Shown here in pieces: positions 51,232 through 63,780 of a stretch of 64,000 nt of DNA. Position 1 is the first letter of the stretch, and every line of letters starts with the position of its first letter. The notes beneath the pieces were generated by a model. The model worked only from the letters and a program-made list of their open reading frames with translations, did no database searches and had not been told where the DNA came from. The translations under genes and the position numbers were made by a program. Source of the DNA: Streptomyces sp. NBC_01717 (GTDB taxonomy: Bacteria > Actinomycetota > Actinomycetes > Streptomycetales > Streptomycetaceae); contig NZ_CP109178.1 of NCBI RefSeq assembly GCF_036248255.1, positions 7,569,001-7,633,000 on the forward strand, read 5' to 3'.

Positions 51232-52418
51232 CGGGGGCGGTGGCGCGGGTGGCCGCGCCGGCGGCGGGGGCGATGGTTGCGCCGGTGCCAGGGGCGCCGG
51301 CGCCCGCGTCGGGCTCTGCGTCGGCTCGGGTGCCCGTGACGGGGGTTCTGCCGGTTTCGCCGGGGGCCGTGCCGACTTCTGTGTCGGCCCGCGTATCCGT
51401 GACGGAGGCTCCGCCCTTGCCGCCGGCGTCGCCCGCACCCGCCTCATCCTCCGTAGCGGCTGGCCTCCCCATGACGGCCGCTCCGCCTGTAGCGCCCGAA
51501 TCACCTGCGCAGACCGGCACCCCCGGTCGCCCGATCCGGTTCGCCGCGCTCGGGGACTCGTTCACCGAAGGTATCGGTGATCCCGTCCCCGGCGGCCGTC
51601 GCGGCTGGGCCGCGTTGCTGGCGGACGGGATCGGGAACGGCCGGCGAGGCGTCGAGTTCCGCAACTTCGCCGTCAGCGGTTCGCTCTCCAGCGACGTCCG
51701 TGACCTGCAGGCCCCGGCCGCCGCCGCCTTCCGGCCCGACCTGGCCTCCATCGTCGTCGGCGTCAACGACACCCTGCGCCGGTCGTTCGACATCCGGCTC
51801 CTCGCCCAGCGGCTGGACGAGGTCTGCGCGCTCCTGACCGACGGCGGGGCCGTAATCCTCACGGCCTGTCTGCCCGATCCCGGCGCCGTCCTCGGGCTGC
51901 CCGCGCCGCTCGGCCGGCCGCTGGCCCGGCGGCAGAATGCGGTGAATGCCGTGGTGCATGCGTTGTCCGCCCGCTACGACGCCGTCCATCTGCATGCCTC
52001 GGACGGGGACTGGGTCTCCGACCGTTCGCTGTGGAGCGCCGACCGGCTCCATCCGGCCGAGCGCGGCCATCGCACGGTGGCGGCGGACTTCCACAGGCTG
52101 CTCGCCGCCCGTGGTCTGGCCCTCGGCACCCCGCCCGGGCGTGAGCCGGAGCAGCCGCCGCCGAGCCGCACCGACTCGTTGCTCTGGCTGGCCACGGCGG
52201 GCACCGGATGGCTGGTCCGCCGGAGCACCGATCTGCTGCCCCAACTGCTGTGCCTGGCAGGAGCGGAGATACGGCACTGGGCGCGCGGCACGAGCGCGCA
52301 GCTGGACCGGCGGGCCGACCAGGCACTGCAGGGCGCGCTCGCCACGGTCACGCTCAGAACTCCGCCCGCCGTGCCACCCGCCCCGTTGCCGGTGCCGCAC
52401 GTCACTATGGAGGGGTGA
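51228..52418 (+). CDS. SGNH/GDSL hydrolase with long low-complexity N terminus
   Basis: A 396-residue protein. Residues 104-300 form an SGNH esterase domain: block [36 protein letters not shown] and the final D-x-x-H in [12 protein letters not shown]. The first 100 residues are an Ala/Pro/Val/Ser-rich, probably disordered stretch with no signal-peptide pattern; an internal ATG at codon 80 is an alternative start. The C-terminal region (about 300-396) has a hydrophobic [20 protein letters not shown] segment. Possibly it deacylates a sugar or lipid made by the coupled glycosyltransferases. Confidence 0.8.
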
Positions 52419-55400
52419 CTGGACGCTGGGAGTTCTGGATCGATCGTGGCGGAACGTTCACCGACGTGGTGGGCCGCGATCCGGACGGGCGGCTGGTCAC
52501 CCGCAAGCTCCTCTCGCACGATCCGGACCGCTACCGGGACGCCGCAGTGGCCGGGATCCGTCTGCTGCTGGGCCTCGGCCCCACCGACCCGGTCCCCGCC
52601 GACCGGGTCGGCAGCGTGAAGATGGGCACGACCGTCGCGACCAACGCCCTGCTGGAGCGGCGGGGCGAGCCGACCGTCCTGGTGATCACCGAAGGGTTCC
52701 GCGACGCCCTGCGCATCGCGTACCAGAACCGGCCGCGCCTCTTCGACCGCCGCATCCTCCTGCCGGAGGCCGTGTACGAGCGGGTGATCGAGGTACCGGA
52801 GCGGATCGACGCGCACGGCCGGATCCTCGCACCCCTCGACCTGGCGGCGACGGCCGAGCAGTTGAGGGCCGCGTGGGCCGACGGATTCCGCAGCGCGGCG
52901 GTCGTCCTGATGCACGGCTACCGGCACCCCGCCCACGAGACCGCGGTCGCCGCCGCGGCCCGCGAGGCCGGCTTCACCCAGGTCAGCTGCTCCCACGAGG
53001 TGAGTCCGCTGATCAAGCTCGTACCGCGCGGTGACACCACCGTCGTCGACGCCTATCTCTCGCCGATCCTGCGGCGGTACGTCGACGAGGTCGCCGGTGA
53101 ACTGGACGCCGTCCGGCTGATGTTCATGCAGTCCAACGGCGGACTGCGAGAGGCCGCGCACTTCCGTGGCAAGGACGCCGTGCTCTCCGGTCCGGCAGGC
53201 GGAGTCGTCGGCATGGCCCGTACGTCCGAACAGGCCGGATTCGACCGGGTCATCGGCTTCGACATGGGCGGTACGTCCACCGATGTGTCGCACTACGCCG
53301 GCGAGTTCGAGCGCGAGCTCGGCACCCAGGTCGCCGGCGTACGGATGCGCGCCCCCATGATGAGCATCCACACCGTCGCGGCCGGCGGCGGCTCCGTCCT
53401 GCACTTCGACGGCCGGCGCTACCGGGTGGGACCCGACTCCGCGGGCGCCGTCCCCGGCCCGGCCTGCTACCGCCGCGGCGGGCCCCTCACCGTCACCGAC
53501 GCCAATGTCATGCTCGGCCGGGTCCAGCCCGCGCACTTCCCCGCCGTCTTCGGACCCGACGGGGACCTGCCGCTCGACGCCGATGTGGTGCGCGAGCGCT
53601 TCGGTGAACTCGCCGACGACGTGGCCCGGGCCACCGGAATGCGACGTACCGCCGCCGAGGTCGCCGCCGGTTTCCTGGAGATCGCCGTGCTCAACATGGC
53701 GAACGCGGTCAAGAAGATCTCCGTGGAGCGCGGCCACGACATCACCCGCTATGCCCTCACCTCCTTCGGCGGCGCCGGCGGCCAGCACGCCTGCGCCGTC
53801 GCCGACGCGCTGGGCGTCGACACGGTCCTCGTACCGCCGCTGGCCGGGGTGCTGTCGGCGTACGGCATCGGTCTCGCGGACGCGACCGCCATGCGCGAAC
53901 AGTCGGTCGAGGCGGAACTTGACGACGAGGGGACCAGGACCCGGCTGGGAGAGCTCCACGACGACCTGGCCGCCCGCACCCGCGCCGAACTGCGCGCCGA
54001 CGGCCTCGCGGACGATGTGATCAGCACGCACGCCCGGGTGTATCTGCGCTACGCGGGCACGGACGCGAGCCTGCCGGTCGACCTGGACACCGCGCCCGCG
54101 ATGACGGAGGCGTTCGCGACCGAGCACCGCGCCCGCTACGGCTTCACCATGGACCGGCCGCTGCTCGCCGAGGCGGTATCGGTCGAGGCGACCGGCGCGG
54201 CCGGCCGGCACGTAACGCACCCGGTGGACCGGAGGGCCCGTCAGGGCGTGCCGCAACCGCATGACATGGCACGGATGTTCGCCGACGGTGGATGGCAGGA
54301 CACCCCGCTCCACCGGCGCGAGGCGCTGCACCCGTCGGACACCTTCACCGGCCCCGCGGTGATCGCCGAGGCCGACGCCACCACCGTCGTCGATCCCGGC
54401 TGGCAGGCCACCATCGGCGACACCGGCCATCTGCTGCTCACCCGGGTCCGCCCGCGCCCCGGCCGGACCGCGATCGGTACGCGCGTGGACCCCGTCATGC
54501 TGGAGGTGTTCAACAATCTCTTCATGTCGATCGCCGAGCAGATGGGCGTACGCCTGGAGAACACCGCCCACTCCGTCAACATCAAGGAGCGGCTCGACTT
54601 CTCCTGCGCCCTGTTCGACGCGAACGGCAACCTGATCGCCAACGCCCCGCACATTCCGGTGCACCTCGGCTCGATGGGGGAGTCCATCAAGGAGGTGCTC
54701 CGGCGCAACGGCACCACGATGCGCCCCGGCGACGTGTACGCCATCAACGACCCGTACCACGGAGGTACGCATCTGCCCGATGTGACCGTCGTGACCCCGG
54801 TGTTCGACGGACGCGGGACATCCGGCGACGGTCGCGCCGGGCTGCGGTTCCTGGTGGCATCGCGCGGCCACCACGCCGAGATCGGCGGCATCACCCCCGG
54901 TTCCATGCCCGCCTTCAGCCGCACCATCGACGAGGAAGGGGTGCTGTTCGACAACTGGCTGCTGGTGAGGGACGGCACATTCCGTGAGGCCGAGACCCGC
55001 GAGCTGCTCACCGGCGCCGCATACCCGTCCCGCGATCCCGACACCAATCTCGCCGACCTGCGCGCCCAGATCGCCGCCAACGAGAAGGGCATCGCCGAAC
55101 TGCGGCGCATGGTGGACCAGTTCGGTGCCGAGGTCGTCGACGCGTACATGGGTCATGTGCAGGACAACGCCGAGGAGTCCGTACGCCGGATCATCGCGGA
55201 GCTGCGCGACGGTTCGTACCGCTACGAGACCGACAACGGCGCCGTGATCGAGGTCGCGCTGGCCGTGGACCGTGACGCCCGCAGCGCCGTCGTCGACTTC
55301 ACCGGCACCTCACCGCAGCAGCCCGGGAACTTCAACGCCCCGAAGTCCGTCGTCATGGCCGCAGTCCTGTACGTCTTCCGGACCCTGGTCGCCGACGACA

Positions 55401-56089
55401 TCCCGCTCAACAGCGGCTGTCTCAAGCCCCTGGAGGTCAGGGTCCCGGAGGGCTCGATGCTGGCCCCCGTCCATCCGGCGGCCACCGTCGCCGGCAACGT
55501 GGAGACCTCCCAGGCCGTCACGGGCGCGCTGTACGCGGCGCTCTCCGTCCAGGCGGAGGGCTCGGGCACCATGAACAACCTGACCTTCGGCAACGACCGT
55601 GTCCAGTACTACGAGACGGTGGCCAGCGGCTCGGGCGCGGGCGACGGCTTCGACGGCACCGACGCCGTGCAGACCCATATGACCAACTCCCGTCTCACCG
55701 ACCCCGAAGTCCTCGAATGGCGCTACCCGGTGCTTCTGGAGAGCTTCCGGGTACGCGACGGCAGCGGGGGAGCGGGCCGGTGGCACGGCGGCTGCGGGGT
55801 GGAGCGCAGACTCCGGTTCCTCGAACCCGTGACGGTGGCGCTGCTCTCCGGACATCGCCGCGTCCCGCCGTACGGCATGGCGGGCGGCGAACCGGGCGCG
55901 CTGGGCAGCCAGCACATCGAGCGTGCCGACGGCGCGAGGACGGTCACCCCGCTGAAGGGCTGCGATACGGCCGATCTGGCGCGCGGCGACGTGCTGGTGC
56001 TGCGCACTCCGGGCGGCGGAGGGTACGGAGCCGGGGAGCGCGGGAACCCGTCGCCGCCGGAACCGGAACGACCGTCGCAGCGTGGCTGA
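52415..56089 (+). CDS. Fused HyuA-HyuB hydantoinase/5-oxoprolinase
   Basis: A 1224-residue cytosolic enzyme of the ATP-dependent oxoprolinase group. The N-terminal HyuA half (about 1-690) has [56 protein letters not shown] and [18 protein letters not shown]. The C-terminal HyuB half (about 690-1215) has [32 protein letters not shown] and the Gly-rich metal/nucleotide-type [11 protein letters not shown] and [10 protein letters not shown]. The single-chain fusion is as in eukaryotic 5-oxoprolinase. The GTG at 52415 overlaps the preceding stop as GTGA and has GGAGG just upstream. The likely substrate is 5-oxoproline or a hydantoin. Confidence 0.88.
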
Positions 56090-56184
56090 CCGACCGTGTT
56101 GTGCGGTCCCGGCCGACGGTGGGGCAACCGGTAGCTTCTGCGCCGTTTCGACCGTTGTCAGTGTGAGGACCTAATCTGTGCAGC

Positions 56185-57711
56185 GTGACTTCGCCTGCCT
56201 ACACGGACAACGCTGCGCCCCAGCTCAGCGCGGGGCCGCGGCCTGCCCCGGGCCCGGCCGCCGACGAGGGGCTCTCACGGCGGCTACGAGCGCTCGCCTG
56301 CACGGCGCCGCTGCACGACCTCGACGTGCGCAAGGCGAATCTGGCCGGTGAGTACACCGTCTACGCGATGGCGGAGGTCGCGCTCGCCGCGATCGACCAG
56401 GTCACGCTGCACATGGACTTCGACACGGGCGCCGACCACGATCAGATAGTGGCCAAGCTGCTCCCGCGCGTCGCCGCCCAGGCCCCGCGCCGCCCCGTGG
56501 CGGAGCACGAGCGCGTCGCCCGCTGGGTGCTGGAGAACCTGATCAATGTCGGAAGCGTGGACCGCGGCTTCCGCGCGGTGTACGGGACTTTCGGCGCCGA
56601 CGGGGTATATGTCCGCAGGGACTACGACTTCAAGCTGATCGAAGAGGTCCCCGGCTACGGCGGCAGCGTCTATCTGAGGGCCACCGACGAAGCGGTCAAC
56701 GTCCTGGTCGGTGCCCTCGACACGGACGTCACCAGCGCCCAGATCGCCGCCGAGGTGAAACTGGAGGTGCTGATCAGCCGGGGCCGCCTCGCCGACGCGC
56801 AGCTCGCCGCCGAACAGGCCCGCTATCGCACCGTGCAGTACGCGGAGACGCTCCGCAGGACGCTGGAAGCGACCCGGCGCAACGTCAGGGCCGTCGACTG
56901 GCTAAACGCCGTGCCCGACATGATCGCCGAGGCACTGGACCACGTCGCCGACCGCTACCGTCACGAGAATGCGATCCTCACCAACATCCGCAAGGCCAGG
57001 GACGAGGCGGAGGACCCCGAACACAAGCGCCGCGCCGCCGAACTCGTCGACATAGTCAAGGACTGCATCCGCCGCCACACCCAGCTGCAGTCCCGCCTGC
57101 TGGAGGCAGGACCGCTGTTCCGTGCCGAGCAGGACCGGCAGGCGTTCGCCACCCCGACGGCCAGGACCGGCCTCGACCTGTACGGCCAGCTGGTCGCCCC
57201 GCTGCTGCCGCTCCCCGTCGAACAGGCCACCCGCGTCACCGACGCGTTCTTCGCCCACGGCACGGGGCTGCGCACGCCCACATCCGTACGCGTGGCCGAC
57301 CTGGTCGACATGCTGCTCACCCCGCCCCTGGAGCGTGAGCATCTGGGCGCCGAGATGCCCGAGCCGGACCTGATCGCCACCCCGGACGACAGCAGGTTCA
57401 GCGAGGAGCAGCTGGCGAGCGCCATGAATCTCCTCGATCTGGAGCACGACGCACCGCGCCGGCTCTCCGGGCTCCTCGCCGAGGCCCGGCGGAGCGATCC
57501 GGACCTGCCCTATCTGGTCGCTCTGCTCGCGGTCCACGCCGCATCCCCGCCGGTCGGCACGGCCTACCGGCAGGGCGAGCGGCGCCTGCTGTTCGCCGTG
57601 GACGACGGGACCGAGCTCGACGACCCGGAGTTCGGCGGCGCCGACCTGATCGTGGGCATGGCCCTGCTGGACGCGGCCGGTATGGCCGCGGACCGCTCGG
57701 AGGCGTCATGA
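56185..57711 (+). CDS. Uncharacterised protein, candidate kleisin-like subunit of an SMC-type module
   Basis: A 508-residue, largely helical cytosolic protein without a motif that I can name. It has LRALACTAPLHDLDVRKANL, a conserved-looking VRRDYDFKLIEEVPGYGGSVY, and a long helical middle part (about 190-310: EQARYRTVQYAETLRRTLEA, RNVRAVDWLNAVPDMIAEAL). The C-terminal LMLTPP-like stretch is followed by SEEQLASAMNLLDLEHDAPRR. Being first in front of a MukE-sized gene and an SMC-like gene, it occupies the kleisin (MukF/MksF/JetA) position; that role is inference. The GTG at 56185 is the only good start. Confidence 0.55.
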   Translation: MTSPAYTDNAAPQLSAGPRPAPGPAADEGLSRRLRALACTAPLHDLDVRKANLAGEYTVYAMAEVALAAIDQVTLHMDFDTGADHDQIVAKLLPRVAAQAPRRPVAEHERVARWVLENLINVGSVDRGFRAVYGTFGADGVYVRRDYDFKLIEEVPGYGGSVYLRATDEAVNVLVGALDTDVTSAQIAAEVKLEVLISRGRLADAQLAAEQARYRTVQYAETLRRTLEATRRNVRAVDWLNAVPDMIAEALDHVADRYRHENAILTNIRKARDEAEDPEHKRRAAELVDIVKDCIRRHTQLQSRLLEAGPLFRAEQDRQAFATPTARTGLDLYGQLVAPLLPLPVEQATRVTDAFFAHGTGLRTPTSVRVADLVDMLLTPPLEREHLGAEMPEPDLIATPDDSRFSEEQLASAMNLLDLEHDAPRRLSGLLAEARRSDPDLPYLVALLAVHAASPPVGTAYRQGERRLLFAVDDGTELDDPEFGGADLIVGMALLDAAGMAADRSEAS

Positions 57712-57944
57712 GCGGGCCGCGGCGCCGGGGCCGCCCCCGCCCCCACCCCGGTCACCGGAGATCCGGTCCCGGCCACCGCCACGCCTGCTCCGGTCACCGG
57801 CGATCCGGAGCAGGCCACCGCCGAGCCGGAGTCGGCGCCCCCCAGCGCGCGGTCCGGCCCGCACCGTTCCCGACGGACACCGGCAGAGCCCGCGCCGTCC
57901 ACCCCGTACCACCGATCTTCCGCACCGAGGAGCGACCGTCGTGA
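57708..57944 (+). other. Intra-operon spacer with a bracketed 78-codon ORF
   Basis: This frame starts with an ATG overlapping the preceding stop (ATGA) and stops in a GTGA overlap with the next start, so it is perfectly placed for coupled translation. However, its predicted product (MSGPRRRGRPRPHPGH...) is an unnatural-looking Arg/Pro/His-rich sequence. The frame of the upstream gene, read past its TGA, gives TPVTGDPVPATATPAPVTGD, which looks like a repeat linker. The spacer may therefore be a frame-decayed tail of the upstream gene. The next gene has its own RBS (GAGGAGCGACCGTC). Confidence 0.35.
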
Positions 57945-58876
57945 GCGACCACCGCGCAGAGCACACCGACGCGTGGAGCGAGCCGACCGCCGGGTACGCC
58001 ACCGTCGGGTACGCGCCCGACGGCGATGCGGCCCACGAGACCACGGCGCCCGCCGCCGTCACACCGGCCGACGCGGCCGACGCGGCCCGGCTCGTCGCCT
58101 TCGGGCTGCAGCCCAAGCTGCTGCCCGCCCGCGACGCCGAATACGCCGAGCTGCTCCGCCGCTACCGGGAAGAGACCCCCTTCGCCCGGCTCGCGGACGC
58201 CGTGGCCACCGGACTCGGTCTCGTCGTCCTGGAGGTGTCCACCCGGGCGGGCATGGCCGTGACGGCGGGCGAGGACTCGGTCTTCGCCGTCCGCATGGGC
58301 GACTACGCCCGCCGCGCCTCGTCCGACTCCGCCGACCGCTTCCTGCACGGACTGGCCCACCTCGCGGTCGCCGCGATGGCCTTCCCGCGCCCCGAGGACC
58401 TCGCCGACGACGCGTACATCGGCCGGATCACGGTCAACGGCATCGACGCGTTCGTACGCCAGGCCTGCCACCGCCTGGAGGAGCGTGCCGAGGAACACGG
58501 CGACAACACCGACCCGGCCACCGACGCCCCCGGACTGGAAGCGGCCTGGCGGATCTACGCCCGGCGCAGCGCCACCGGTGCGACGAAGGACGCCCGGCGG
58601 CTGGCCGGCTCCACCACCGGCATCGTCGGCAAGGCCGTCGCCTTCCTCACCGACTCCGGCTTCCTCCAGCGCACCGGGGACGACGCCGGGGGCGCCTTCC
58701 GCACCACGGCCCGCTACCAGCTGCAGGTCCGCGACATGGCGGGCACCGCCGCCATGGCCGAACTGCTGGAGCTCGGCGTCGTACCCGTCACCGACGGAAC
58801 GGCGACGCTGCTGCCGCCGCCCGACGGCGACGACCTGGAGCTGGCGGCCGACGCCGGTCTGCCCTTCCACGCCTGA
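57941..58876 (+). CDS. Uncharacterised protein, candidate MukE/KITE-like subunit
   Basis: A 311-residue protein. An acidic, Ala/Thr-rich N terminus (about 50 residues) precedes a folded part with LVAFGLQPKLLPARDAEYAE, LAHLAVAAMAFPRPEDLADD, ITVNGIDAFVRQACHRLEE and a winged-helix-like STTGIVGKAVAFLTDSGFLQ. The final part is FRTTARYQLQVRDMAG. This resembles the size and winged-helix character of MukE/MksE/JetB proteins, which link kleisin and SMC heads. I rely on context more than on a direct sequence match. GTG start with a strong GAGGAG RBS eight bases upstream. Confidence 0.6.
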   Translation: MSDHRAEHTDAWSEPTAGYATVGYAPDGDAAHETTAPAAVTPADAADAARLVAFGLQPKLLPARDAEYAELLRRYREETPFARLADAVATGLGLVVLEVSTRAGMAVTAGEDSVFAVRMGDYARRASSDSADRFLHGLAHLAVAAMAFPRPEDLADDAYIGRITVNGIDAFVRQACHRLEERAEEHGDNTDPATDAPGLEAAWRIYARRSATGATKDARRLAGSTTGIVGKAVAFLTDSGFLQRTGDDAGGAFRTTARYQLQVRDMAGTAAMAELLELGVVPVTDGTATLLPPPDGDDLELAADAGLPFHA

Positions 58877-58929
58877 GCACCCCCACCGCCGCCCCACTCC
58901 TGCTTTCCGAACGACGAGAGTCCGCCGCC

Positions 58930-61900
58930 ATGTACGAGCTGTCCCGGGTCCGCCTCTACTCCATCGGGCCTGCCGGTGCGCGCTACGCCGACACCGTGCT
59001 TGACCTGCGCGGAGTGGGCGAGCCCGTGCCCCACCCCGCGCCGGCCCAGGCGGAGTTCTTCGAGGAGGAGCCGGTCGGCCCGCCGCGCCGCCCCGCGCCC
59101 GCCGGTGTGCTGTTCCTGGAGAACGGCGGCGGCAAGTCGGTCCTGCTGAAACTGATCTTCTCGGTGATGCTGCCCGGCCACCGCAACACCCTGGGCGGTG
59201 CCAGCTCCGGCGTACTGCGCAAGTTCCTGCTCGCCGACGACTGCGGCCATGTCGCCCTGGAGTGGCAGCACACCCTCACCGGTGAGTGCGTGGTCGTCGG
59301 CAAGGTCAGCGAATGGCGCGGACGGCAGGTCTCCAACGACCCCCGCAAGTTCGCCGAGGCCTGGTACTCCTTCCGCCCCGGGCCCGGACTCAGCCTCGAC
59401 TCGCTGCCGGTCGCCGAGGCCACCGCCGTCGGCCGCCCCGTCGAAGGTGTCTCCGGCGCCCATGGCAGGCGCCGCACCATGAAGGGCTTCCGGGACGCCC
59501 TCACGGACGCGGGCAAGTTCTACCAGCACCTCGATGTGCACTGGGAAGAGATCCACGACCGGTGGAACGAGCACCTCGGCGACCTCGGCCTCGACCCCGA
59601 ACTCTTCCGCTACCAGCGTGAGATGAACGCCGACGAGGGCGAGGCCGCAGGTCTCTTCGCGGTCAAGAAGGACTCCGACTTCACCGACCTGCTGCTGCGC
59701 GCCGTCACCGACACCCGCGACACGGACGGCCTCGCCGACCTGGTCAGCGGCTTCGGCAACAAACTGGGCCGCCGGGCCGAACTCACCGCGGAACGGGACT
59801 TCACCGCAGGCTCGGTCGATCTGCTCGGCCGGATCGTCGAGGCCGCCGACTCCCGCTCCCGCACCCGCGACATCCACGCGGGCGCCGAGCGCCGCACCCG
59901 TACCCTGGCCCGCAGGCTCTCCGCCCGGGCCGCCGAGGAGCGAGGCCGCGCCGCGGACCTCGCCCAGCAGGTGACGGGCGCCGCCCACACCGTCGGTGCC
60001 GCAGAGGAGGCGCGTAGCCGCAGCGGCCTCATCGCCGCCGAACTGGCCTACCGTCACGCGTCCCTGGCGCTGGCCGCAGCCGAGAAGGGCGCCGCCGCCC
60101 AGCGCCGAGAGCTGGTCGATGCCCGCACCCTGCACTCCGCCTGGCAGGCAGCCGAAGCCGTCCTGCGCCACCGCGCCGCCGCCGACCGGTCCGCACGCGT
60201 CGCCGTCGCCATCCGTGAGGCCGAGCGCGACGCCGCCCCCGCGCTCGCCGCCCGTGCCACGGCCGCCGCCGACCTCGTACGCGCCCTGCACACCGCCGCG
60301 GAGGCCGGCGAGCAGGTGGCCAACGAGGAGGAGGAGCGCTCCGACACCCTCCAGGCCGCGGGCGAGACCGCCCACCGGGACGCCACCACTGCCGCCACCG
60401 AGGCCCAGCGCGCCCGCAGCGAGGCCGGACATCTGCGCCAGCGCCTCGCCGAGGTCGAGCAGGAGACCGCCGAGGCCGTACAGGCGGGGTGGCTCGACAA
60501 CACCGCGCCGGATGCCGACCCGGCGCGCGCCGCCCTTGCCGCGAGCGACGCCGAGCAGTCCACCGTCGCCGCCTGGAACACGGCCAGGGAAGCCGCCGGC
60601 GCCGCGGCCGACCGGGCCAGGGAAGCGGCGGCCACCGACAGCCGCGCCGAGCTCGCCGCGGCGCGCGCCGCCGACGCCGCGCAGGCGGCTGAACAGTCGT
60701 ACGAAGCCGAGCTCAGGGCCGCCGAGTCGATCGCCGCCGACCACCGACTCGCCGACCTGCTGAGCCTGCCCCCGGCCTCCGGCACCGGAGTACCGCGGCC
60801 ACGCCGGGGCACCGCCGGAAACGAACCGGGCGCGGCTGCGGACGCCACCGACTCGCCTGCGTCCGGAGGACATTCCGCATCCCATGGCCGACCCGGTGAC
60901 GGCACGGGCACCGCGGCCGCCGGATCCGACCGGCAGACAGCCGTCGCCGATCACGCACTCGTCACCGACCACACCGTCAGCAGCGAGCAGCCGCTCACCG
61001 CCGAGGAGCTCGACCGCAACGCCGACGAGCTGCGGGACCTCCTCGACCAGGGCATCGCCGCCGCCGAACGGCGCCTCTTCGAGCTGCGCACCGCGGCCGC
61101 CGACGACTCCCGCATCCTCGGCGCGCTCGGCGACGGCGGACTGCTGCCGCCCGGGCCCGACGTCCTCGCCACGGTCGAATATCTCGGCGAGCACGGTATT
61201 CCGGCGCTGCCCGGCTGGCGCTACCTCGCCCAGGCCGTCGACCCCGCCGACCACGCGGCGGTGCTCGCCGCCCGTCCCGAGCTCGTCGACGGCGTGGTCA
61301 TCACCGACGCCGATTCGCACGCCCGCGCCCGCGAAGTCCTGGGCAGCGCCGCCCTGCTGCCGCGCTCCGCCGTGGCCGTCGGCACTGCCGCCGCGCTGCT
61401 CGCCCCCGTGCCGGCCTCCGGTTCCGGCTCCGAAGCGGATGGTGTGTTCCTCGTCCCGCCGAACCCGGCCATGCACGACGAACACGCCGCCGACGAGGAA
61501 CGGCAGGCGCTCAGGAGCCGGGCCGCCGCCCGGGACGAGGACATCCGTACGCTCGCGGCCCGCCTCACCGGGGACCGGTCCCTCGCCGCCCGCATCGGTT
61601 CCTGGCGCGCCGACTGCCCTCCCGGCATGCTCGCGGAGCTCGCCGAAGCCGCCCGTACCGCCCGCACGGCCGCCGAGACGGCCCAGGCCGTGCTCGCCGA
61701 GGCCCGCACGGCACGCGCGGAGGCCGACGAAGCCGCCGCCGACACCGCCCGCGTCCGCGACGAGCGACAGGAGGCCGCCCAGCGCGCCCGCCGCGTCGCC
61801 GACGTACTCGCAGGCCTGGCCCACCGGCTGCGCGAACGCGCCGGCTGGCAGGCGAAACTGCGCGAACTGGTCGAGGAGGCAGCCGAGTCCGAAGCCCGCG

Positions 61901-63780
61901 CCACGGTCTGCCTGGAGCGGGCCCGCGCCGCCGACGAGGACCGCAGGGCCGCCCAGCGCGCCGCCGACGACGCCCGCCGCACCGCCCGCGCCCTGCGGGC
62001 CGAGCGCGCCGAGATCGCCGGCGCCCCCGAGAACATCCCGGAGCCCGAGGGCGACGCACCGCGCCCTGCCCTCCCCGCCCTGCGCGAGGCCTACCGGGCC
62101 GCATCCCAGCTGTACGAGAAGGTCGGCGTCGGCGCCGACCTGCGCGCCGAACAGGCCCGCGCCGAGAGCGACGAGAGCGCCGCCCTCGCCGAGCTGGACC
62201 GGCTCACGAACAAGGTCCGCACCCGCGCCGCCCAGCTCCTCGAAGGCACCGACGGCGCCGACGGCCCCTCCCGGCAGGCGGCCGCCGCCCGAGCCGAGTC
62301 CCTGGTCCAGCTGCTGGAGACCCGGGCCTCCACGGCGAGCGAGCAGCTCGGCCGACTGCGCGGCGAGGCCGAGCGCCTGGCCCCGGCCGACGGCGAGGAC
62401 CACCACACCGAGCTCCCCGACGACCTGGTCCCCGCCGACGCCGAGCAGGCCCAGACCCTGCTGCGTACCGCCACAGCCGAACTCGGCACCGCAACCGGTG
62501 CCCTGGACACCACCCGCGCCGCCCACGCGGAGCTGCTGTACGCCCACCGCACCGCCGAGGCCTCGGCCGGTGGCTTCGACGAGACCGCGGCCCTCCTGCG
62601 CGACCTGCTCAGGGACCACGGCGCGGACGACGACACCGAGTCCCCCGAGCCGTACCCCGGCAGCCTCGACGAGGCCCGGCAGTCCGCCGCCGAGGCCCGC
62701 CGCTCACTGCGCGGCTGCGCCGCCGACCTCTCCGCCGCCGAGAGCGCGGTGCGCGAGGCGAGCGATGTGCTCGTACGGCACGCCAACTCCACCCGCTACG
62801 AACAGGTCCGTACCCCGGCCCGCCAGCAGATCCGCGAACTCCCCGCCGCGGCCCTGCCCGAGCACGCCCAGAAGTGGGCCGCCGCCTTCGCACCCCGCCT
62901 CCGCGTGCTCACCGATGAGCTGGCCCAGCTGGAGCGCAACCGCGACTCCATCGTCGACCGGCTCCGCGGACTCGTGGAGTCCGCGCTCACCACCCTCCGC
63001 TCCGCCCAGCGGCTCTCCCAGCTCCCGGAGGGGCTGGGGGAGTGGTCCGGCCAGGAGTTCCTCCGGATCCGTTTCGAGGAGCCCGACCAGGCGACACTCA
63101 CCGAGCGGCTCGGCGAGGTCATCGACGATGCCACTCGCGCCGCGCTCAAGAAGAACTCCGATCTGCGCCGCGACGGCATGTCCCTTCTGCTGCGCGGCGT
63201 ACAGGCGGCGCTGGAGCCCAAGGGCATCGCCGTGGAGATCCTCAAGCCGGACGCGGTGCTCCGTGCCGAACGCGTCCCGGTCGGTCAGATGGGCGACGTC
63301 TTCTCGGGCGGCCAGCTGCTCACCGCCGCCATCGCGCTCTACTGCACGATGGCCGCACTGCGCAGCAACGACCGGGGCCGTGACCGCCACCAGCACCGCC
63401 ACGCGGGCACGCTCTTCCTGGACAACCCCATCGGCCGGGCCAACGCCACGTATCTGCTGGAGCTCCAGCGAGCGGTGTCGGACGCCCTCGGCGTACAACT
63501 GCTCTACACCACCGGGCTGTTCGACACGACGGCGCTCGCCGAATTCCCGCTGGTCATTCGGTTGCGCAACGACGCGGACCTGCGGGCGGGCCTGAAGTAC
63601 ATCAGCGTGGAGGAACATCTGCGCCCCGGTCTGCCGAAGCAGGATCCGAACGGCGAGACGGTGCACGGCGAGATCACCGCCACCCGCATGTTCAAGCGCA
63701 CACCGACGGCGCCCGATGTGTCAGCGGCGCCGGGGACCCCTCAGACCCCACGGATTCCCGACACCCCGACCGACGACTGA
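58930..63780 (+). CDS. Giant SMC-like coiled-coil ATPase (MukB/JetC-like)
   Basis: A 1616-residue protein with SMC architecture. The N-terminal head half has a P-loop VLFLENGGGKSVLLKLIF (Lys69). Long Ala/Glu/Arg-rich coiled coils span about 300-620 and 860-1330. Between them lies a globular hinge (about 717-850: LPGWRYLAQAVDPADHAAVL, DGVVITDADSHARAREVLG). The C-terminal head half has the ABC signature VFSGGQLLTAAIALYC (about 1458) and Walker B GTLFLDNPIGRANAT (about 1496). A disordered Gly/Ala/Thr insert occupies about 618-695. Walker A lacks the first Gly of GxxxxGKS, and Asn follows the Walker B Asp where Glu is usual. Probably a DNA-loop-forming ATPase partnered with the two upstream proteins. 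Confidence 0.82.
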   Translation: MYELSRVRLYSIGPAGARYADTVLDLRGVGEPVPHPAPAQAEFFEEEPVGPPRRPAPAGVLFLENGGGKSVLLKLIFSVMLPGHRNTLGGASSGVLRKFLLADDCGHVALEWQHTLTGECVVVGKVSEWRGRQVSNDPRKFAEAWYSFRPGPGLSLDSLPVAEATAVGRPVEGVSGAHGRRRTMKGFRDALTDAGKFYQHLDVHWEEIHDRWNEHLGDLGLDPELFRYQREMNADEGEAAGLFAVKKDSDFTDLLLRAVTDTRDTDGLADLVSGFGNKLGRRAELTAERDFTAGSVDLLGRIVEAADSRSRTRDIHAGAERRTRTLARRLSARAAEERGRAADLAQQVTGAAHTVGAAEEARSRSGLIAAELAYRHASLALAAAEKGAAAQRRELVDARTLHSAWQAAEAVLRHRAAADRSARVAVAIREAERDAAPALAARATAAADLVRALHTAAEAGEQVANEEEERSDTLQAAGETAHRDATTAATEAQRARSEAGHLRQRLAEVEQETAEAVQAGWLDNTAPDADPARAALAASDAEQSTVAAWNTAREAAGAAADRAREAAATDSRAELAAARAADAAQAAEQSYEAELRAAESIAADHRLADLLSLPPASGTGVPRPRRGTAGNEPGAAADATDSPASGGHSASHGRPGDGTGTAAAGSDRQTAVADHALVTDHTVSSEQPLTAEELDRNADELRDLLDQGIAAAERRLFELRTAAADDSRILGALGDGGLLPPGPDVLATVEYLGEHGIPALPGWRYLAQAVDPADHAAVLAARPELVDGVVITDADSHARAREVLGSAALLPRSAVAVGTAAALLAPVPASGSGSEADGVFLVPPNPAMHDEHAADEERQALRSRAAARDEDIRTLAARLTGDRSLAARIGSWRADCPPGMLAELAEAARTARTAAETAQAVLAEARTARAEADEAAADTARVRDERQEAAQRARRVADVLAGLAHRLRERAGWQAKLRELVEEAAESEARATVCLERARAADEDRRAAQRAADDARRTARALRAERAEIAGAPENIPEPEGDAPRPALPALREAYRAASQLYEKVGVGADLRAEQARAESDESAALAELDRLTNKVRTRAAQLLEGTDGADGPSRQAAAARAESLVQLLETRASTASEQLGRLRGEAERLAPADGEDHHTELPDDLVPADAEQAQTLLRTATAELGTATGALDTTRAAHAELLYAHRTAEASAGGFDETAALLRDLLRDHGADDDTESPEPYPGSLDEARQSAAEARRSLRGCAADLSAAESAVREASDVLVRHANSTRYEQVRTPARQQIRELPAAALPEHAQKWAAAFAPRLRVLTDELAQLERNRDSIVDRLRGLVESALTTLRSAQRLSQLPEGLGEWSGQEFLRIRFEEPDQATLTERLGEVIDDATRAALKKNSDLRRDGMSLLLRGVQAALEPKGIAVEILKPDAVLRAERVPVGQMGDVFSGGQLLTAAIALYCTMAALRSNDRGRDRHQHRHAGTLFLDNPIGRANATYLLELQRAVSDALGVQLLYTTGLFDTTALAEFPLVIRLRNDADLRAGLKYISVEEHLRPGLPKQDPNGETVHGEITATRMFKRTPTAPDVSAAPGTPQTPRIPDTPTDD

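Follow-up and report, generated by a model that had tools for sequence, protein, structure and literature searches.

The question raised by the locus described here is whether three consecutive genes of Streptomyces sp. NBC_01717, which resemble a Wadjet system without its nuclease, still serve plasmid defence or have been turned to another use. The genes lie in a stretch of 64,000 nucleotides, called the window below (C1:7569001-7633000; the genome comprises 10.2 Mb in three contigs), and a first-pass annotation made from the sequence had described them as a module of a kleisin, a KITE (kleisin-interacting tandem winged-helix element) protein and a giant SMC (structural maintenance of chromosomes) ATPase. 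In Wadjet systems, JetABC is an ATP-dependent and probably loop-extruding sensor, and JetD is the cutter, according to a review (PMC10586767). The three genes of the window encode JetABC proteins of the type III Wadjet lineage, with no JetD in this genome by the searches made, and they are nearly universal in the Streptomycetaceae; both the type III lineage and the near-universality go beyond what the first-pass annotation saw. We consider it reasonably likely that they now specify a housekeeping, loop-extruding condensin that would have descended from Wadjet III in parallel to MksBEF.

All three annotated frames were confirmed in a listing of reading frames, as follows:

56185..57711, plus strand: jetA-like gene, GTG start, 508 amino acids; predicted kleisin subunit of the type III Wadjet lineage, PADLOC JetA3
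57941..58876, plus strand: jetB-like gene, GTG start, 311 amino acids; KITE subunit, tandem winged helix
58930..63780, plus strand: jetC-like gene, ATG start, 1616 amino acids; SMC ATPase of the type III Wadjet lineage, PADLOC JetC3

The 508-residue protein matches the PADLOC profile JetA3 (PDLC00567) with an E value of 2.1e-188 over residues 24-506 of 508, and the 1616-residue protein matches JetC3 (PDLC00588) with an E value of 0 and 1394 bits. The 311-residue protein has no PADLOC match; it can be aligned with the JetB of JetD-bearing type III operons, residues 4-37 being an extension of poor conservation, and the folds nearest to its predicted structure are MukE and JetB, in keeping with the winged-helix look that had been remarked on in the middle protein. 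The AlphaFold2 model of JetA has low confidence, and its 11 top matches in Foldseek, at E 2.8e-3 or worse, are all chains from entries that contain MukF; the assignment of JetA as a probable kleisin is drawn from the PADLOC match and from synteny. Searches of Pfam and NCBIfam returned nothing above cut-off for any of the three proteins (whether these libraries hold Mks models was left unchecked), as had been guessed for the two smaller ones, and the 1616-residue protein matches no Pfam SMC family at E<=1. The canonical SMC-hinge protein of this genome is encoded elsewhere, at C1:3068389. The profile searches and single-protein structure predictions that had been suggested as a check thus place JetA with JetA3 and JetB with the MukE/JetB fold, the JetA model being weak, and the proposed kleisin-KITE-SMC module stands: the three genes are JetABC of the type III Wadjet lineage, JetA and JetC by profile and the KITE-like JetB by fold. 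Because of the JetA3 and JetC3 matches, the gene order kept in relatives, and ratios of nonsynonymous to synonymous substitution rates (dN/dS) of 0.07-0.24, the frames are real genes and not chance.

The first-pass annotation had found no JetD/MksG gene after jetC in the window and advised inspection of the next 10 kb for a nuclease. A profile for the type III JetD (JetD3), built from nine such proteins, is silent over 32 kb past jetC, and thus the observation holds well beyond the distance proposed. In the genome of NBC_01717 as a whole there is no match to Pfam JetD_C at E<=1 (all four first-look candidates scored) and none to JetD3 at E<=0.01 among the 20 of 80 first-look candidates scored. 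Since both JetD models are negative genome-wide, the suggestion of a "split" defence system finds no support. The JetD3 scoring covered the best first-look candidates (20 per genome in the genus sample, 7 in another sample and up to 59 in the Frankiaceae), and a weak JetD might therefore be overlooked. Controls were positive in all five independent loci, and a sixth control, L144, duplicates a locus used in building the profile. Eighty named loci of the JetD-less kind, of which 67 show the end of jetC and 66 at least 1.5 kb beyond it, gave no JetD, and none was found in 36 further stretches (two of them from NBC_01717 itself and some from the genomes of the 80 loci). Neither JetD_C nor JetD3 identifies a JetD in 81 of the 98 jetA-positive genomes of the genus sample.

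JetD3 does match 9 of the 101 genomes in that sample, and these are exactly the nine with a second jetABC. The JetA of the second copies is 26-53% identical to that of the window (ten rows for nine genomes, since G090 carries two), and a JetD with a DLD motif lies directly after jetC in 9/9. Pfam JetD_C is found in 13 of the 101 genomes, namely five of the nine and eight others; five of the eight were fetched (L082-L086, from G014, G085, G003, G009 and G012) and hold nothing matching the JetA, JetB or JetC of the window, and their JetD_C genes probably belong to other Wadjet types or are orphan nucleases.

The JetD-less genes are distributed very differently. A jetA is present in 98 of the 101 sampled Streptomyces genomes (97 of 98 genomes of good quality). 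In the 97 carriers other than NBC_01717, one of which (G081) is a contig fragment, the identity is 83-96%; the canonical SMC hinge is found in 97 of the same 101, NBC_01717 included. The order sample has jetA in 232 of 245 genomes, and all 13 misses fall outside the Streptomycetaceae: every one of the 230 members of that family is positive, three of them from other genera, with best E values of 6e-214 or better, as against 2 of the 15 remaining genomes. Yinghuangia and Actinacidiphila also carry the gene. In the class sample, the 43 positives among 296 genomes consist of 28 Streptomyces and 15 Frankiaceae, and the Frankiaceae carriers belong to Frankia, Parafrankia and Pseudofrankia. Fourteen of the 19 Frankiaceae genomes with jetA have no JetD3 match. 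The PLSDB plasmids yield only four distant relatives, 29-54% identical.

A defence system is usually mobile and has a patchy distribution. The JetD-less set is neither in its genus nor in its family, and this near-universality argues that it is not a broken defence island. Between the two possibilities raised in the first-pass annotation, a divergent condensin and a nuclease-less defence system, retention across genus and family favours the former, since the JetD-bearing copies are patchy. The second possibility can be phrased as a nuclease-free plasmid defence in which small circular DNA would be sensed by total extrusion and then silenced or compacted, in the way that has been suggested for Smc5/6 acting on extrachromosomal DNA. 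The motor belongs to a lineage of plasmid sensors (PMC10586767) and the sensor subunits are retained, as this explanation would predict, whereas occurrence in 98/101 genomes, against 9/101 for the JetD-bearing copies, and the scarcity and divergence of plasmid relatives are not what it leads one to expect; we regard it as rather unlikely.

The JetC sequence retains its ATP-site motifs, and a probable hinge can be placed between two coiled-coil stretches:

59119..59139, plus strand: JetC Walker A motif ENGGGKS, residues 64-70, from motif comparison
61117..61539, plus strand: probable JetC hinge, about residues 730-870, flanked by two coiled-coil stretches, placed by eye
63301..63315, plus strand: JetC ATP-binding cassette (ABC) signature FSGGQ, residues 1458-1462, from motif comparison
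63412..63435, plus strand: JetC Walker B motif LFLDNPIG, residues 1495-1502, from motif comparison

The 25 JetCs compared, from core and Frankiaceae loci, all have the same Walker A (ENGGGKS), signature (FSGGQ) and Walker B (LFLDNP). The DNP of Walker B is also found in 11 of 12 JetD-bearing JetCs, L136 giving no match to the pattern. Most SMC proteins have a catalytic glutamate where the Walker B of type III JetC has asparagine, and LDNP with asparagine at this position occurs in JetD-less and JetD-bearing type III JetCs alike. Comparison with five relatives gives dN/dS values of 0.07-0.12 for JetA, 0.11-0.18 for JetB and 0.12-0.24 for JetC. Judged from these coding sequences, jetABC is under purifying selection, with ATP-binding and signature motifs intact. 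At one related locus (L053), JetA shows 95.6% identity, and the values for three genes that flank it are 88%, 84% and 78%. A decaying, functionless relic of a defence system would account for the missing effector and for the one genome (G012, below) with a jetA lacking adjacent jetBC; set against the near-universal retention, the low dN/dS values, the conserved ATP-site motifs and a conserved promoter-like block before jetA, it is hardly credible.

Trees place the JetD-less Streptomycetaceae in one clade and the JetD-less Frankiaceae in another, each with 100% support in every tree, and because both clades lie among JetD-bearing systems, JetD would appear to have been lost. A tree of JetA+JetB with 43 taxa unites all JetD-less copies in a joint clade at 98%, and one of JetA+JetB+JetC (34 taxa, 2228 sites) does so at 87%; in the latter case the constrained tree is the best tree, so that the approximately unbiased test is uninformative. 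The trees use 12 of the 22 fetched core genus loci, and rooting on the most divergent copies was our choice, the 87% above and a 64% given below being read from unrooted trees. L134, the nearest relative in the 43-taxon tree, has a JetC truncated at the end of its contig and could therefore not be included in the three-gene tree. In five Frankiaceae loci (L124, L126, L129, L130 and L131) the sequence stops no later than the end of jetC, and next to nothing can be seen past it; the genomes of L124, L126 and L129 have no JetD3 match, and for L130 and L131, whose genomes have a JetD beside another copy, the JetD-less label is a guess. L142 (G123) and L230 (G115; a jetA with only scraps beyond) were left unassigned as to JetD. 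The second copy of G130 was counted as JetD-bearing because the end of a JetC, together with a JetD, is found where another contig ends (L134, L145); the contig sequences were kept separate.

The model that we prefer begins with a type III Wadjet lineage that would have lost JetD, once or twice, while JetABC was retained as a housekeeping complex. In this model, JetA as kleisin and JetB as KITE protein would link JetC dimers into a complex that would bind ATP and, having captured DNA, extrude it as loops, and without JetD this extrusion would end in DNA folding rather than cleavage. Because nothing would be cut when extrusion ends, the complex could work on the chromosome itself, as a second condensin beside SMC-ScpAB and much like the MksBEF of Pseudomonas. 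This comparison draws on the same review, in which P. aeruginosa MksBEF is considered likely to have arisen by loss of JetD and is said to help in chromosome organisation (PMC10586767). A role of the Streptomyces complex in chromosome organisation or sporulation may be supposed. In its broadest form the proposal is that Streptomyces and their relatives carry an unrecognised second condensin, a disarmed type III Wadjet which lost its weapon perhaps twice and is now core chromosome machinery of the whole family, and which may explain the mild effects of smc deletion; to this we would give about an even chance.

Several observations weigh against the condensin model, beginning with the trees. When L228 (the JetD-bearing locus of G601, one of the Frankiaceae) and others are added to the two-gene tree, giving 46 taxa, the joint JetD-less clade is gone, and the JetD-less Frankiaceae group with L228, L132, L073 and L074 at 64%. 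The JetA of L228 is 61% identical to that of the window, which makes it as near as the Frankiaceae copies that have no JetD. That JetD was lost only once was considered as a firm claim and dropped, since the joint clade dissolves once L228 enters the two-gene tree; one ancient loss is for that reason not established. JetD may have been lost once or twice among the Streptomycetaceae and Frankiaceae, and transfer between the families is also possible. In addition, JetD-bearing and JetD-less copies show no fixed differences in JetA or JetB and only 4 in JetC, so that no remodelling for a new role is visible.

Presence is also patchy in the Frankiaceae, where only 19 of 35 genomes have jetA, and three of the 101 genus genomes lack it, two of them 78-82% complete and one (G073) 98% complete. 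In G012, the similarity of jetA (L070 3971-5494) stops at residue 464, and no jetB or jetC was found in the 10 kb after it, the genome being otherwise unsearched for them. Because of these three genomes and G012, jetABC may be dispensable; the smc hinge of G012 likewise lies in a shortened frame, and the missing jetBC may thus reflect poor assembly. The poor JetA model (pLDDT, predicted local distance difference test, 53.5) is a further weakness. Finally, since only the JetD_C and type III JetD profiles were used, a non-homologous nuclease would escape notice, and this leaves room for a Wadjet that works in trans with an unlinked enzyme of another family in place of JetD. Such an arrangement is very improbable in view of the position of JetD directly after JetC in all nine second copies. 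Moreover, no tested neighbour is common to all 22 core loci (an oxoprolinase is found at 8, a 154-residue protein at 16 and a CvnA-like kinase at 15), so that there is no obvious fourth subunit, and the Frankiaceae loci have different neighbours.

Another alternative is a specialised SMC complex devoted to telomere or arm maintenance of the linear chromosome, to repair or to double-stranded DNA transfer in mating, rather than to general condensation. It would suit the position of the locus, whose median distance to the nearer contig end is about 1.2 Mb (20 fetched contigs >5 Mb, a non-random set measured by hand). Frankiaceae chromosomes are circular, and the presence of the JetD-less set in that family weakens a telomere role; we consider the specialised complex as a whole quite improbable.

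A housekeeping condensin of this kind can be compared with several known systems. With type III Wadjet (JetABCD) it shares the JetA3 and JetC3 profile matches, the A-B-C gene order, and the signature and DNP Walker B of the JetD-bearing copies. It differs in the lack of a JetD in locus and genome, in being near-universal rather than patchy, and in its conserved promoter-like block; in addition, the JetD-less genes of Streptomyces are mostly separated by gaps (approximate, as some JetB starts are artefactual), whereas JetD-bearing operons are near-overlapping. MksBEF of the Pseudomonas type, a JetD-less condensin, likewise consists of kleisin, KITE and SMC without a nuclease, whereas the parent here is the type III lineage and neither Pfam nor NCBIfam gives a match that passes the cut-off. 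The JetB model resembles MukE and the weak JetA model points to MukF, yet there is no sequence match to MukBEF; MukBEF took over from Smc-ScpAB in its hosts (PMC10586767), whereas a canonical SMC coexists with the complex described here. The MksBEFG/JetABCD of Corynebacterium glutamicum is also an actinobacterial MukBEF-like complex beside SMC; it carries the nuclease MksG (PMC10123090), and none was found here. Smc-ScpAB itself is distinct, in that the 1616-residue protein of the window has no Pfam SMC match and the SMC-hinge protein is encoded elsewhere in the genome.

Wadjet types II and III were awaiting characterisation as of 2023 (PMC10586767). According to a survey made with DefenseFinder, 42% of Actinobacteria have Wadjet, which in Streptomyces is enriched towards the chromosome ends; the terms jetABC and jetD are absent from its main text (PMC10482375). 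Papers on Streptomyces chromosome folding name SMC as the only condensin in their relevant passages (PMC13121528, PMC8410768). The phenotype of the S. coelicolor smc deletion has been called mild (PMC7174722), and a table row for it gives 7% and "WT" (PMC4255302), which we take to be the anucleate fraction and the cell shape. No published description of a JetD-less Streptomyces complex was found in open-licence PMC papers, and a phrase search for JetD-less Wadjet returned only the review PMC10586767. If the proposal is true, a conserved second SMC complex would offer redundancy as a testable explanation for the mild smc-deletion phenotype of S. coelicolor, and a defence machine would have been turned to housekeeping from a Wadjet type other than the one behind MksBEF. 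Catalogues of defence systems that rely on matches to JetA3 and JetC3 could list a core complex as immunity by mistake. The Frankiaceae genome G601 has both kinds of locus: L228 is JetD-bearing, and at L229 the 4 kb that follow jetC contain no JetD. This pair within a single genome would be useful for comparing JetD-bearing and JetD-less jetABC.

Alignment of the regions upstream of jetA (up to 22 core copies, with the consensus taken over the rows aligned and 9 rows displayed) revealed the following features:

56144..56184, plus strand: promoter-like block, strongly conserved, ending at the jetA GTG
56172-56177, plus strand: -10-like hexamer TAATCT, 7 nucleotides before the jetA GTG

The sequence suggests that this block is a promoter and that the jetA mRNA may be leaderless, which would fit a TAATCT only 7 nucleotides from the GTG.

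Some further observations concern the JetD-bearing systems and JetC. G090 has a JetD-bearing type III Wadjet twice on its 9.24-Mb contig C1 (L078 5787-13857 and L144 3600-11349), about 9 kb from either end, and the two copies probably lie in terminal inverted repeats. L146 (G122 C1:1230000-1248000) has a type III JetD after a short JetC fragment, with no match to jetA or jetB, and looks like the remnant of a JetD-bearing type III system. JetC has an insertion at residues 164-177 (59419-59460) in all 14 Streptomycetaceae rows that is absent from the Frankiaceae rows and from four JetD-bearing copies. A second insertion relative to these four JetD-bearing copies, at residues 623-686 (60796-60987), precedes the hinge and is a linker of low complexity that varies.

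The gene upstream of jetA (about 52418-56089) resembles, by inspection, a fused hydantoinase/5-oxoprolinase A-B, and adjoins jetA in 8 of the 22 core loci. After jetC (L009 7784-13076) come a small gene on the minus strand that looks like one for a membrane protein, then a conservon-like cluster and glycerol genes, again by inspection; of the 22 core loci, 16 have a relative of the small gene next to jetC and 15 a relative of the kinase.

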